This document shows positions 4,107 to 37,969 of a stretch of 64,000 nt of DNA, piece by piece. The translations under genes were made by a program, and so were the position numbers. Positions within the stretch are counted from its first letter, which is position 1. Every line of letters begins with the position of its first letter. This DNA is from Cryobacterium lactosi (GTDB taxonomy: Bacteria > Actinomycetota > Actinomycetes > Actinomycetales > Microbacteriaceae): positions 341 to 64,340 of the forward strand of contig NZ_SOHM01000006.1 in assembly GCF_004403945.1 (NCBI RefSeq). The letters are read 5' to 3'. The notes beneath the pieces are model-generated. The model did not search any database, had not been told where the DNA came from, and worked only from the letters and a program-made list of their open reading frames with translations.

Positions 4107-5342
4107 TCAGAGCGCAGCGGCTTTGGCGAGCAAGACACCCCGCTCGCGCTCATTCCCGGTGAGCGCTGCCGCGGTCACGAACTCCGAACGCGCCTCCTCG
4201 GCCCGGCCGAGCCGGGCCAGCAGTTCGCCGCGCACGCTCGGCAACAGCGACGAGCCGCGCAGCGCGCCGGCGTCGGCCAGGCCGTCCACGATGCGCAGGG
4301 CGGATGCCGGACCGGTCGCCATCGATACCGCCACCGCCCGGTTGAGGTCCACCACCGGGTTCGGCGCGATACGGCCGAGGGCCTCGTAAAGCAGCACGAT
4401 CCGGGCCCAATCGGTCTCGTCGATACTCGGCGCGGTGGCATGGCACTCCGCGATCGCGGCCTGCAGGGCGTAGCTGCCCCGGCCACGGCCCAGCGTATCC
4501 GCCCGGGCCAGCGCCGCCTGGCCGCGGCCGATCTGGGCGCGGTCCCAACGGGCCCGGTCCTGGTCGGCCAGCAGGACGGGGGTGCCGTCCGGGCGCACCC
4601 TGGCGCCGAACCTGGACGCCTGCAGCTCCATCAGCGCCACGAGCGCGTTCACCTCCGGCTCCCGCGGGGTGAGGCCGGCCAGCACCCGGCCGAGGCGCAG
4701 CGCCTCGTTGGCCAGGTCGGTACGCATCCACTGCTCGCCCGCGGTGGCGGCGTAGCCCTCGGTGAAGATCAGGTAGACCACGCCGAGCACCGAGCCGAGC
4801 CGGGCCCGCCACTCGCTCGGGTCGGGTGCCTCAAACGGCACCTTCGCGGCGGCCAGGGTCTTCTTGGCGCGCACGATGCGCTGCTGGATGGTGGCGACCG
4901 GCAACAGGAACAGGCGGGCGATCTCCTCGGTGCTGAGCCCGCCGATCAACCGCAGCGTCAACGCCACCTGGGCTTCGCGGGCGATGACGGGGTGGCAGGC
5001 GATGAACACCAGGCGCAACACGTCGTCATCGATCGGCTGCCAGGCATCCGGGCCCTCGTGGGGCCCGGTCGCCAGGTCGTGGGCGATCGCCTGGTAACGC
5101 TCGTCCAGGCGCTCGCGCCGCCGCCAGGTGTCGATGGCCTTGCGCTTGGCCACCGCGGTGAGCCAGGCCCCCGGGTTGTGCGGGATGCCCGTCTCCGGCC
5201 ACTGCCGGAGCGCGTCGACGACGGCCTCCTGGGCGAGGTCCTCGGCCAGCACCACGTCGTTGGTCACCCTGGCGAGGGTGGCGACGATCCGGGCGCCCTC
5301 GATACGCCAGACCGCCGCCACTGTGCGCCCGGTGTCGACCAT
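4107..5342 (-). CDS. ECF42-group RNA polymerase sigma factor
   Basis: A 411-residue extracytoplasmic-function sigma factor with the long C-terminal extension typical of group ECF42. Sigma region 2 (about 15-80) includes AEDLAQEAVVDALRQWPE and WLTAVAKRKAIDTWRRR. Region 4 (about 125-175) includes LSTEEIARLFLLPVATIQQRI. The remaining ~230 residues are helical and carry the conserved YALQAAIAECHA, TDWARIVLLYEAL and NPVVDLNRAVAV patches. It follows the DGPF-domain gene by 21 nt, the hallmark gene pair of this group, and no anti-sigma factor is encoded nearby. In this group the extension itself is thought to control activity. The regulon is unknown. Confidence 0.9.
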   Translation of the reverse strand: MVDTGRTVAAVWRIEGARIVATLARVTNDVVLAEDLAQEAVVDALRQWPETGIPHNPGAWLTAVAKRKAIDTWRRRERLDERYQAIAHDLATGPHEGPDAWQPIDDDVLRLVFIACHPVIAREAQVALTLRLIGGLSTEEIARLFLLPVATIQQRIVRAKKTLAAAKVPFEAPDPSEWRARLGSVLGVVYLIFTEGYAATAGEQWMRTDLANEALRLGRVLAGLTPREPEVNALVALMELQASRFGARVRPDGTPVLLADQDRARWDRAQIGRGQAALARADTLGRGRGSYALQAAIAECHATAPSIDETDWARIVLLYEALGRIAPNPVVDLNRAVAVSMATGPASALRIVDGLADAGALRGSSLLPSVRGELLARLGRAEEARSEFVTAAALTGNERERGVLLAKAAAL

Positions 5343-34575: not shown

Positions 34576-35841
34576 TCAGCTGAGGGCGGGGGCGGCCGGG
34601 CGGCGGAGCAGCGACCAGGCCACGATCACGGCCACCAGGGACATCGTGGCGAGACCGAGGCCCGAGTAGCCCACCAGGATCAGCACCGGGCCGGCCAGGG
34701 CGCCGCCGAGGGCGCCCGCGGCGTTCATCGAGAGGTCGGAGAACCCCTGCAGCGCCGATCTGTCGTGCACGCCGACGGCCTCGGCGATGAGGGCAGAGCC
34801 GGCCACGACGGATGCCGACCAGCCCAACCCCAGCAGGATCAGCCCGGTGGTCATCGCCGCCGCATTCTCGCCGGCGAGCCAGAACAGCACGAGAGAGGCC
34901 AACAGCAGTGCCTGGCCGGTCAGGATCACCGGCATCCGCCCCACCCTGTCGGCCAAGGCGCCGAACACCGGCGACAGGGCATACATGCCGGCCACGTGCA
35001 GGCTGATGGTGAGGCCCACGATGGTGAGGGATGCGCCGTGTTCGGTGAGGTGGACCGGTGCCATCGACATGAGCGCCACCATGGTGGCGTGGCTGAGGGC
35101 GACGACCATGACGGCGTAGCGCGCCAGCGGGTTGCCGCGCACGATGGCCAGGCCGCCGTGCTGCCGGGTGCTGGCCGGCCGCGCCTCCCGGGCCGACAAC
35201 GCGGTGAGCAGCGGGTCGGGCCGCAACCCCACCGTGTAGACTAGGGCGGCACCCACCTGTGCCGCCAGCGAGAAGGCGAACGCCCCGGTGAGCGGCGGCA
35301 GGCCGAGCTGCGCGCCGACGACCTCACCCGGACCGAACAGGTTGGGGCCGAGCACCGCACCGATGGTGGTGGACCAGACCACGATCGAGAGGTCCCGGGC
35401 GCGGGAGGTGGAGCCGGCCAGGTCGGTTGCGGCGAACCGGGCCTGCAGGTTGGTGGCCGACCCGGCGCCCAGCAGCATCAGGGCGAGCAGCAGCAGCGGG
35501 AAAACGTCGATCGCGACCGACGTGATGGCCAGAATCGCGCCGATCCCGGCGATGCCCGCGCCGGTGGCCAGAGAGCGCCGGCGCCCCCTGGCCTGGGCCA
35601 GGCGGGCCAGCGGCACGGCCACCAGGGCGGCACCCAGGGTGCTCATCGTGGCGGCCATGCCCGACCACGCGTTCGAGCCGGAGAGCTGGGCGGCCAGCAG
35701 TGCGCCGAGGGAGAGCGTGGCGCCCATGCCGATGCCGCCCAGGACCTGGCCGAGGATGAGCACCCGCACCACCTTCCGCTGAAGGTGAGCGTGCGCCGGC
35801 ACGGTCGACTCCGCCGCGGCGGGCGGGCGGTGTTCGGTCAT
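34576..35841 (-). CDS. MFS transporter (drug efflux-like)
   Basis: A 421-residue permease with 12 predicted helices. It has an ARLAQARGRRRSLATGAG loop between helices 2 and 3, a long hydrophilic linker after helix 6 (SAREARPASTRQHGG) and FGALADRVGRMPVILTGQ in the second half. No substrate-specific motif is seen; a multidrug or metabolite exporter is likely. It is divergent from the CsoR-type operator region at 35910. Confidence 0.85.
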   Translation of the reverse strand: MTEHRPPAAAESTVPAHAHLQRKVVRVLILGQVLGGIGMGATLSLGALLAAQLSGSNAWSGMAATMSTLGAALVAVPLARLAQARGRRRSLATGAGIAGIGAILAITSVAIDVFPLLLLALMLLGAGSATNLQARFAATDLAGSTSRARDLSIVVWSTTIGAVLGPNLFGPGEVVGAQLGLPPLTGAFAFSLAAQVGAALVYTVGLRPDPLLTALSAREARPASTRQHGGLAIVRGNPLARYAVMVVALSHATMVALMSMAPVHLTEHGASLTIVGLTISLHVAGMYALSPVFGALADRVGRMPVILTGQALLLASLVLFWLAGENAAAMTTGLILLGLGWSASVVAGSALIAEAVGVHDRSALQGFSDLSMNAAGALGGALAGPVLILVGYSGLGLATMSLVAVIVAWSLLRRPAAPALS

Positions 35842-35909: not shown

Positions 35910-35925
35910 ATACCCCTAGGGGTAT
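35910..35925. promoter_or_regulatory. CsoR/CstR-type operator
   Basis: A perfect 16-bp palindrome ATACCCCTAGGGGTAT. CsoR-family repressors (copper-sensing CsoR/RicR, persulfide-sensing CstR) bind such G-tract palindromes. It lies 25 bp before the ATG of a three-gene operon that ends with a rhodanese lipoprotein. No csoR-like gene is within the window. Confidence 0.78.
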
Positions 35926-35949
35926 GAATTCTCGTTGGGAGGGACCCCC

Positions 35950-36519
35950 ATGCAGACCGAATCGAACTCGGGGCCGCAGCAGCCGGCCGGCGGGCGCCTG
36001 CGCCTGCTCGGCGCCGAGCTGCTCCGCTGGCCGGCCCGGCGCTGGTGGGTCGCCCTGGCCACGGCCGTGGGGACGTATCTCGTCATCGCCATCCCTACCG
36101 ACCTGGTCGACACGCCGTTCTTCGGCCGGGAGGTGCCACCCACGTCGTGGTCGTGGCCGGTGCTCGCCGTCAGCGCCGTGCTGGCCGGCCTGGTCACGGC
36201 CACCTACGTGGCCTACCCGGATGGCGCGGCGCCGAAACCGGCCGAGTCGCGGGTGGGGATGGCCGGCTGGTTCGTCACCTTCTTCGCCGTCGGCTGTCCG
36301 GTGTGCAACAAGATCGTGCTGCTGGCGCTCGGCTCCTCCGGGGCGATGCAGTTCTTCGAGCCGGTGCAGCCCTATCTGGCCGCCGCGTCGATCGGGCTGC
36401 TCGGTTGGGCGTTCTATGCCCGGGTGACCCGGGAGAACAGCTGCCGGCTGCCGCGGGGCGCCTCGCGCGCCACCGGGGACGTATCTCGCACCGTCGTGGA
36501 GGCCGATCGTGCTCGCTGA
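35950..36519 (+). CDS. membrane protein with CPVCNK motif
   Basis: A 189-residue protein with four predicted membrane helices (about 33-52, 67-88, 104-129 and 142-157). A CxxC motif, GCPVCNK (Cys116, Cys119), lies inside the third helix; Cys165 is in the tail. I recognise no named family. A membrane-embedded thiol pair under a CsoR/CstR-like operator suggests handling of Cu(I), persulfide or sulfur. The start is ATG 35950 with GGGAGG 8 nt upstream. Confidence 0.75.
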   Translation: MQTESNSGPQQPAGGRLRLLGAELLRWPARRWWVALATAVGTYLVIAIPTDLVDTPFFGREVPPTSWSWPVLAVSAVLAGLVTATYVAYPDGAAPKPAESRVGMAGWFVTFFAVGCPVCNKIVLLALGSSGAMQFFEPVQPYLAAASIGLLGWAFYARVTRENSCRLPRGASRATGDVSRTVVEADRAR

Positions 36520-37066
36520 CTTGCGCCTGTGGTCGCGGCGGCGCTGGCTGGTCGCCACGGCGGTGGCGGTGTGCGCGAGCGTGGGGCTGATCCTGGCGGC
36601 ATCGATGGTGTCGAGTGCGCCAGGATTGGGGGCGCCGTGGTGGGCGTTCGTGGGCGTCGCCGGTGGTGGCATCCTGGTCGGGCTCATCGTGGCCGGCTAC
36701 CTCGAGGCGCCGATCGGCGCCGAGGCCACCGTGTGCGACCTGCGTTGGCCGCTGCTCGGGCTGCTCGGCCTCTATCTGGCCAGCGACGCCAGGGCGCTCG
36801 TGCCCACCCTGTCCGCCGAGGTGCGCCCGGTGGTGGCCCTGGCCTCGGTGGCCGTGCTGGTCTGGGCGCTGGCCGAGCGGATGCGTGGGGAGCGGCACGC
36901 CCTCGCCGCCGGCCGGCGCCGCGACGCGGTGCTGCACGGTGACGCCGATGCCGGCCACCACGCTCTCAGCACCAGCCACGCACTCAGCACCGACGGCGAG
37001 TCCTGCAGCACCTGTCGACCCCTGTTCCCCGCCCGCCCCCATTCCCTTGGAGGACCCACCCCATGA
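36509..37066 (+). CDS. membrane protein with His/Cys-rich tail
   Basis: A 185-residue protein with about four helices (13-31, 43-63, 80-92 and 107-121) and a hydrophilic C-terminal tail containing His143, His150, His151, His157 and the CxxC pair Cys166/Cys169. The tail resembles a metal- or sulfur-binding segment. The family is not recognised. The start is GTG 36509, GGAGG upstream, overlapping the previous gene by 11 nt; its stop overlaps the rhodanese start as ATGA, so the operon is tightly coupled. Confidence 0.68.
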   Translation: MLADLRLWSRRRWLVATAVAVCASVGLILAASMVSSAPGLGAPWWAFVGVAGGGILVGLIVAGYLEAPIGAEATVCDLRWPLLGLLGLYLASDARALVPTLSAEVRPVVALASVAVLVWALAERMRGERHALAAGRRRDAVLHGDADAGHHALSTSHALSTDGESCSTCRPLFPARPHSLGGPTP

Positions 37067-37485
37067 AGACCCCCCACCTCGCCCTCGTGCTGACCCTGGC
37101 CACTGCCCTCGGCCTCGCCGGCTGCTCGGCCGGCACGTCGTCGCCGGCCACCTCGCCGGGCACCGAGACGATCGGCCCGCAGTCAACGCCGGACTCCACC
37201 ACCGCTCCGTTGGCCCTGAGCACGATCATCGACGTGCGCACCCCCGCTGAGTACGCCGAGGGCCACCTCGACGGCGCCATGAACATCGACGTGCAGGCCG
37301 CTGACTTCGCCGAACGCATCGCCGAACTGCCCACCGATGCCGAGTACATCGTGTACTGCCGCACCGGCGCCCGGGCCGCGGCGGCCGTGGCGCAGATGAC
37401 CACGCTGGGTTTCACCGACGTGACCAACGCGGGCAGCCTGGCCGACGCATCCGCCAGCACCGGAATCGCGGTCGTGAGCGACTAG
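37063..37485 (+). CDS. rhodanese-domain lipoprotein
   Basis: A 140-residue lipoprotein with lipobox LAGC (Cys21), a Ser/Thr/Pro-rich linker and a compact rhodanese domain (IIDVRTPAEYAEGHLDGAMNI, active loop YCRTGARA with Cys99). It should accept and carry sulfane sulfur on the outside of the membrane. With the two upstream membrane proteins and the CsoR/CstR-like operator it makes a probable thiol or persulfide stress operon. Confidence 0.87.
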   Translation: MKTPHLALVLTLATALGLAGCSAGTSSPATSPGTETIGPQSTPDSTTAPLALSTIIDVRTPAEYAEGHLDGAMNIDVQAADFAERIAELPTDAEYIVYCRTGARAAAAVAQMTTLGFTDVTNAGSLADASASTGIAVVSD

Positions 37486-37493
37486 CGTCGCCC

Positions 37494-37554
37494 CGCGAAC
37501 TGTGAGAAAAGCCCCAAAACTCGCGGGTTTTCGGGGCTTAAGTCACAGTTCGCG
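37494..37554. repeat. 61-bp palindrome, copy D
   Basis: The best-preserved copy: GCGAACTGTGAGAAAAGCCCC pairs with GGGGCTTAAGTCACAGTTCGC, and the loop AAAAC-TCGCG-GGTTTT can fold further. It starts 9 nt after the rhodanese stop and ends 50 bp before the next gene start, a suitable site for a terminator of the thiol operon. Confidence 0.87.
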
Positions 37555-37603
37555 AGCTGGAGAGCGGGTGGGGGAGTATCTTCGCGCCAGAGAGGGGGCG
37601 CGG

Positions 37604-37969
37604 ATGACGTTCGAGGCAGTGGTCGAAGCGGCCGTACGGGTGGTCGAGGTGGTCGGTGCGGCCATCATGGTGTTCGGCGGGCTGGCGGCCCTGCTGGCCG
37701 GCGTCCCGCGGATGCTCAAGGCCGACACCCGGCCCACGGCCTACCAGGCCATGCGGCGGGAGCTCGGCCGGGCCATCCTGCTGGGCCTTGAGGTGCTGAT
37801 CGTGGCCGACATCATCCGCACCATCGTGGTGGAACCCACGGTGGAGAGCGTGTTGGTGCTCGGCGCGATCGTGATCATCCGGGTGCTGCTGAGCTTCTCG
37901 CTCGAGGTGGAGATGGACGGCGTGTGGCCGTGGGCCCGCTGGCGCACGGCGGGCAAGCCCGAGGCCTGA
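37604..37969 (+). CDS. DUF1622-family membrane protein
   Basis: A 121-residue protein with three predicted helices (VVGAAIMVFGGLAALLAGV, ILLGLEVLIVADIIRTIVV, LVLGAIVIIRVLLSFSLEVE). It matches the DUF1622 pattern, including YQAMRRELGRAILLGLE. The function is unknown. ATG 37604 has AGGGGG upstream; an in-frame start at 37502 would fall within palindrome D. Confidence 0.8.
   Translation: MTFEAVVEAAVRVVEVVGAAIMVFGGLAALLAGVPRMLKADTRPTAYQAMRRELGRAILLGLEVLIVADIIRTIVVEPTVESVLVLGAIVIIRVLLSFSLEVEMDGVWPWARWRTAGKPEA

Follow-up and report, generated by a model that had tools for sequence, protein, structure and literature searches.

A candidate CstR-regulated operon pairing MerT-like membrane proteins with a predicted lipoprotein rhodanese in Cryobacterium lactosi

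To our knowledge, the passage of reactive sulfur and of reducing power across actinobacterial membranes is poorly known. We asked what controls, and what might be the task of, a small operon in Cryobacterium lactosi that lies in a 64,000-nucleotide stretch of the 4.66-Mb genome (C50:341-64340, where C numbers are contig labels), here called the window. The operon begins with a 16-bp perfect palindrome of the form ATACC-N6-GGTAT, ATACCCCTAGGGGTAT (positions 35910 to 35925, without strand), followed after 24 bp by memA (35950 to 36519, plus strand), which encodes a 189-residue MerT-like protein with four predicted transmembrane segments (TM) and a CPxCN motif in the third. Next come memB (36509 to 37066, plus strand; GTG start, 185 residues), a paralogue of memA lacking CPxC, and a gene for a PspE-like rhodanese (37063 to 37485, plus strand), a predicted lipoprotein with the active-site loop CRTGAR. 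As originally predicted, the genes overlap, memA and memB by 11 bases and memB and the rhodanese gene by 4. A major facilitator superfamily (MFS) transporter gene on the minus strand (34576 to 35841), its start codon about 70 bp from the operator, diverges from this trio and perhaps belongs to the same regulon.

The palindrome stands as predicted and is the sole match in the window at three or fewer mismatches, where 0.04 were expected and 4 of 100 shuffled sequences held at least one. It has the form of the 16-bp site ATACCn6GGTAT bound by the sulfane-sulfur sensor ScCsoR of Streptomyces coelicolor, as given in the accessible part of PMC7533328. The same source derives this consensus with MEME from inputs that include copper-sensor sites, namely those of G. 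thermodenitrificans CsoR and M. tuberculosis RicR, so that an N6 spacing alone is no proof of persulfide control and the feature is not exclusive to it; this is also a point in favor of copper control. At a number of CsoR sites, S. lividans copper sites included, a 5'-TAC-N9-GTA-3' repeat (TACC-N7-GGTA) is described (PMC3902906, accessible part). This copper-type N7 feature is absent from the window operator, whose spacing is N6.

A search of the whole genome for ATACC-N(5-8)-GGTAT returned seven sites, five N6, one N7 and one N5, versus none for the pattern read backwards. Besides the site ahead of memA-memB-rhodanese, N6 sites lie on C34, 40 bp before a rhodanese-CstR operon; at C48:337193, 14 bp before a CoA-disulfide-reductase/rhodanese gene; at C48:388541, about 46 bp upstream of a gene that fuses CoA-disulfide reductase to rhodanese and in which TusA- and DsrE-like parts can be made out by eye; and at C48:375822-375837 (locus L030, about 4823-4838), where the perfect palindrome ATACCCCATGGGGTAT precedes an NAD(P)H-hydrate epimerase gene by about 65 bp. 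The N7 site (C29:24379) is 26 bp before the copper csoR gene, and the N5 site is at C45:206059. Looser patterns did not rise above their controls: TACCC-N(2-7)-GGGTA gave 10 genome sites versus 8 and was thus not enriched as a whole, and the palindrome with two mismatches gave 9 versus 19. We therefore built the argument on the strict pattern (seven versus none). The looser pattern added an N7-type site between copZ and csoR (C29:24346), an N7 site, TACCCCCTAGGGGTA, before a Cu-type P-ATPase gene just beyond the end of the window (C50:64522, locus L033), a single longer site, and N6 sites at C34:51411 and C53:61121, neither of them with a known sulfur gene. The site at C50:64522 is likely a copper operator and shares its contig with the N6 site of the window. 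It appears that a single base of operator spacing, N6 versus N7, tells apart the persulfide and copper targets of sister repressors in one genome; should this hold, regulons elsewhere in the Actinobacteria might be predicted from it.

Three further neighboring genes were named by eye. A phosphofructokinase-like gene diverges from the site at C48:375822, where no sulfur link was seen. The Cu-type P-ATPase at C50:64522 has a Met/His-rich N terminus and is followed by a multicopper-oxidase-like gene. Finally, a perfect palindrome, CACCCCTAGGGGTG, lies shortly before a response-regulator-like gene at C24:47359 (locus L004).

In the CsoR family, a particular His marks copper sensing, while two Cys without that His mark the CstR type. 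Two genes of the C. lactosi genome match the family. The product of the C29 gene, which sits beside copA, has the C..H..C arrangement and matches RicR at E 6.9e-44, a score below the RicR cut-off. The C34 gene, beside a rhodanese, encodes Ala at the His position, leaving two Cys and no copper-ligand His, as a CstR regulon would require. Its matches are both far below cut-off, with FrmR, a formaldehyde-responsive regulator, the best in NCBIfam (5e-10) and RicR at 1.4e-7.

We compared the locus with those of 16 relatives in Cryobacterium, in 15 of which the trio could be scored (locus L025 stops at a contig edge). An N6 site precedes memA in all 16, 1 to 83 bp ahead of the chosen start. All 55 occurrences of ATACC-N(2-10)-GGTAT in these loci are N6, and the reversed pattern does not occur in them. 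Behind the 55 sites lie genes for rhodanese fused to a metallo-beta-lactamase domain (MBL-rhodanese; 23 sites), memA (20), DsbA (2), a lipoprotein rhodanese (1, in L027) and a multicopper-oxidase-like match (1, in L016), while 8 have no typed gene within 600 bp. A CstR-type gene diverges from memA in 13 of the 16 loci, with Ala at the His position in all 13; MBL-rhodanese and TauE genes are nearby in 11 of 16, and DsbA-CcdA genes lie downstream in 5 of 16. Of the 15 scorable loci, 11 hold all three genes in the same order. Among the four others, memB is missing from L023 and the downstream rhodanese from L014 and L020, and L027 has its rhodanese about 4.8 kb upstream instead. The original prediction of a CsoR-family-type operator ahead of a conserved thiol and rhodanese operon is thus borne out. 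Its open choice between persulfide and copper can be narrowed, since the sites of the genome itself and the CstR-type neighbors of its relatives make persulfide control of the trio better supported than copper, and the proposed copper role is not supported.

The gene order in L019 and L022 is MFS-cstR-memA-memB-rhodanese. The window has the same arrangement minus cstR, which suggests that cstR was lost here and that the C34 gene acts in trans. The MFS transporter beside cstR is 75% identical to that of the window in L019 and 78% in L022 (by tblastn), and the one behind an N6 site in L081 shares 76% identity with it over 285 residues; the window protein did not match the MFS transporter of L080 and had only 27% identity to that of L087. 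The distribution of memA in the genus is patchy, since it was found in two of six sampled genomes, that of the window included.

In wider samples, memA matches were recovered from 8 of 299 genomes of the family, one of which (G084) holds a memB-type protein, and from 47 of 394 sampled genomes of the class, four of them short, weak matches. A further 90 plasmid records hold relatives at E<=0.01; among the 30 plasmid matches listed, 27 are named "hypothetical protein" and 3 are unannotated. We typed neighboring genes by tblastn with sample proteins at 57 non-Cryobacterium loci (9 plasmid and 48 genome; the Cryobacterium locus L089 is not counted), 56 of which hold memA and one, L095, memB only. 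In 14 of the 56, an N6 site was located no more than about 125 bp upstream of the memA match itself (12 loci) or of a gene run containing it (2 loci): in L104 the site precedes a rhodanese gene with memA about 0.2 kb further on, and in L105 a thioredoxin-rhodanese-memA run. Counting L086, memA adjoins a predicted lipoprotein rhodanese in three actinobacterial loci beyond Cryobacterium, which supports the original prediction in kind. The 707 kb of non-Cryobacterium loci contain 48 sites (39 N6, 7 N7 and 2 N5), and four of the seven N7 sites are at copper-ATPase/CsoR units, L088 by annotation and L128 with a presumed CsoR, the other three being unassigned. No N7 site precedes memA in any of the 16 Cryobacterium or 56 other loci.

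Sulfur is not the sole context of memA, since DsbA/CcdA-type genes occur in 25 and CopY/M56-type genes in 22 of the 57 non-Cryobacterium loci; some of these loci have no typed neighbor. We labeled a tree of the 56 memA sequences by hand (18 S, 22 D and 16 other), and the label "behind N6 site" needs seven changes on it, at least six of them forced by starred branches. A single origin of the sulfur link is thus unsupported, and gains and losses are indistinguishable. In three loci of small-genome actinobacteria (L107, L108 and L112), memA with an N6 site diverges from a gene named by eye as a TehA/SSU1-like transporter, possibly a sulfite exporter.

What kind of protein is MemA? Its CPVCNK motif, noted originally as lying inside a helix, occupies residues 116 to 121 and does fall within a hydrophobic segment and a predicted helix. 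Across the 56 memA sequences, C116, P117, C119, N120, G128, G131, A132, P138 and P141 show no variation, and C165, positioned after TM4, is nearly invariant. Charge distribution suggests an N-in/C-in topology with CPxC inside TM3. The MerT motif is a Cys pair in a transmembrane helix near Gly/Ala and Pro, and the resemblance of the MemA family to MerT is modest. The window protein has no Pfam match up to E 10, and its score against MerTP is 19.3 bits, below the curated cut-off of 180. At E<=0.1, Pfam MerT (PF02411) is matched by 23 of the 56 members (best 1.4e-6) and an NCBIfam MerT model by 30 (best 3e-6). Since other transmembrane families also match single members, one relative matching an unrelated channel family at 1.9e-5, the likeness rests on this recurrence. 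A PF02411 search of 118 class genomes gave no match, but neither did the control genomes, which makes it uninformative, and the memA profile matched only three receptors among PDB sequences (E 1.4 to 4.4). AlphaFold models built from a Cryobacterium-only alignment were of low confidence for both MemA (pLDDT 66.8, pTM 0.57) and MemB (pLDDT 65.2, pTM 0.39). With these models, Foldseek found no PDB match at E<=0.001, and VIA-align pointed to LTC4-synthase four-helix bundles at Z 6.9, within the range that the tool assigns to common arrangements. As a separate matter, "TGA inside" flags had raised the idea of selenocysteine in MemA; we rejected it for the sequences with a locus because the flagged plus-strand stops lie C-terminal, after the intact CPVC, and the invariant CPxCN of the 56 sequences also contradicts it.

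MemB matches MemA by hhalign with a probability of 98.7 (E 3.2e-16) and is evidently its degenerate sister, having no CPxC and keeping, across 15 aligned sequences, Cys76 and a CxTC-PLFP tail. The residues of the predicted His/Cys tail are all present (His 143, 150, 151 and 157; Cys 166 and 169). The importance given to the histidines is not supported, as all four sit in a strain-specific insertion missing from the other 14 sequences. Hydropathy yields only three strong segments, leaving the membrane side of the CxTC tail uncertain. A memB-type protein with no memA typed nearby is encoded at L095:5851-6411 (G084, same family), 67 bp from an N6 site.

The rhodanese domain is secure (PF00581, 59.2 bits against a cut-off of 22.2, E 5.9e-16), with Cys99 of CRTGAR as the catalytic cysteine, and it is nearest to MoeZ- and PspE-type domains (NCBIfam PspE at E 5e-11, below the PspE cut-off; PDB 2jtq at 2.2e-9). 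A lipobox, LAGC, in MKTPHLALVLTLATALGLAGC, was recognized by eye, and lipobox-like endings occur in the orthologues too, in keeping with the original call of a lipoprotein; the protein is predicted to be lipid anchored and to face outward. An MBL-rhodanese dioxygenase was not seen in the genome, where rhodanese domains turned up together with a single weak MBL match that stands apart from them (E 9e-6). From this, and from the two CoA-disulfide-reductase/rhodanese genes with N6 sites, the cytosolic end of the system would probably be reductive.

Together, these comparisons of sequence support a regulon, a conserved trio, a MemA-MerT resemblance and MemA-MemB kinship. We propose, with somewhat better than even confidence, that the trio belongs to a CstR regulon derepressed by persulfide, in which an external rhodanese works with a MemA/MemB thiol relay. 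Cellular persulfide or polysulfide, the presumed signal, would modify CstR, the presumed repressor, encoded on C34; repression at the N6 operator would then be lifted, and memA, memB and the rhodanese gene, perhaps with the divergent MFS gene, would be expressed. On the outside of the membrane, the lipoprotein rhodanese would accept or donate sulfane sulfur, much as the original prediction proposed. MemA would work with it as a thiol relay, by means of the CPxC pair in its helix and another Cys, the third, at the edge of the membrane. MemB would be the partner subunit with a CxTC tail, and the two may form one complex. Under this proposal, MemA and MemB would most likely relay thiol chemistry through the membrane for the external rhodanese, whether sulfur or electrons are passed and in whichever direction. 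A widespread "hypothetical" membrane family would thereby be given a probable regulator, partner proteins, key cysteines and a function that can be tested.

If the MemA/MemB cysteines carry sulfane sulfur (as Cys-SSH) and not electrons, it could move from Cys to Cys between the external rhodanese, the CPxC within the membrane and cytosolic sulfurtransferases, in this or the reverse direction. That persulfide sulfur crosses the cytoplasmic membrane along such a protein path is a tentative, rather doubtful idea. It is also unlikely, though deserving of serious thought, that MemA and MemB instead pass reducing equivalents outward in a CcdA-like manner from cytosolic thioredoxin/CoA pools, with the rhodanese persulfide or external polysulfide being reduced to H2S and no sulfur atom crossing the membrane. 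The DsbA/CcdA-type genes of the 25 non-Cryobacterium loci, which adjoin memA in several annotated plasmids, would fit such an electron relay, as would a TlpA gene beside memA in another plasmid, the thioredoxin gene in the L105 run and an NCBIfam model, TsoB, named as a rhodanese/DsbD fusion. However, because CcdA is often already beside memA, MemA should do something more, and its likeness is to MerT, a protein that passes on a soft ligand, not electrons.

Readings centered on metals fare worse. That this is a copper or copper-sulfur operon under a copper CsoR could be argued from plasmid copper-gene neighborhoods that contain memA relatives and from the multicopper-oxidase- and P-ATPase-like matches near memA in L016. 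We nevertheless think it very improbable, given that N6 sites, in this genome and in relatives, mostly precede sulfur genes, that N7 sites are found ahead of csoR or Cu-type ATPase units and never ahead of memA in the loci compared, and that the adjoining Cryobacterium regulators are of the CstR type. The MerT-like C-terminal half of MemA, with its in-membrane Cys pair, recalls uptake or efflux of a soft metal such as Hg2+ with the rhodanese as an accessory. No mercury gene appeared among typed or annotated neighbors (merA, merP and merR being outside the search), and the operator and the Cryobacterium neighbors belong with sulfur genes, making this reading very improbable.

By analogy, the regulation we favor, persulfide acting through CstR, resembles that of known CstR circuits. 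The ScCsoR (SCO0620) circuit has the same ATACCn6GGTAT operator and a CsoR-like regulator with two sensing Cys, and its rhodanese, persulfide dioxygenase (PDO) and TauE recur in the related Cryobacterium loci (PMC7533328, accessible part). The circuit as presented there comprises four genes (regulator, PDO, rhodanese and TauE), with no MerT-like membrane protein named, and, unlike it, the genome of the window shows no MBL-rhodanese PDO. MemA may share with MerT (PF02411) a Cys pair in a transmembrane helix with Gly/Ala and Pro residues after it; it differs in lacking a Pfam match and in its sulfur-gene context. It is also predicted to have two extra N-terminal helices and carries CPxC in place of the vicinal Cys pair of MerT. 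Like PspE, the rhodanese is single domain, but it is predicted to be lipid anchored and shares an operon with memA and memB.

The original prediction called the system undescribed. In the literature searched, we found no account of a CstR-controlled system that joins a lipoprotein rhodanese to two MerT-like membrane proteins and no paper on Cryobacterium and rhodanese together, so to that extent the claim stands. It must be qualified because a memA relative occurs in the Arthrobacter "CYT" clusters of PMC6305408. As described in its accessible part, the SUL and CYT modules of Arthrobacter plasmids contain genes for CsoR, sulfur dioxygenase, rhodaneses, TauE, MFS and DUF302, with DsbA, CcdA and DsrE near them. 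Plasmid pA40H2 carries the relative (L087) within a CYT cluster, where it was possibly counted as a second CcdA and apparently not recognized as a family of its own; that part of the source mentions neither memB nor a lipoprotein rhodanese and discusses neither the membrane family nor an operator.

Downstream of the trio, at 37604 to 37969, lies a gene for a DUF1622 protein (E 3.9e-23), which had no match across the 16 Cryobacterium loci. Between it and the rhodanese stop codon, at 37495 to 37560, an inverted repeat can be seen by eye, AACTGTGAG...AAGCCCC...GGGGCTT...TCACAGTT, possibly a terminator or a small repeat element.
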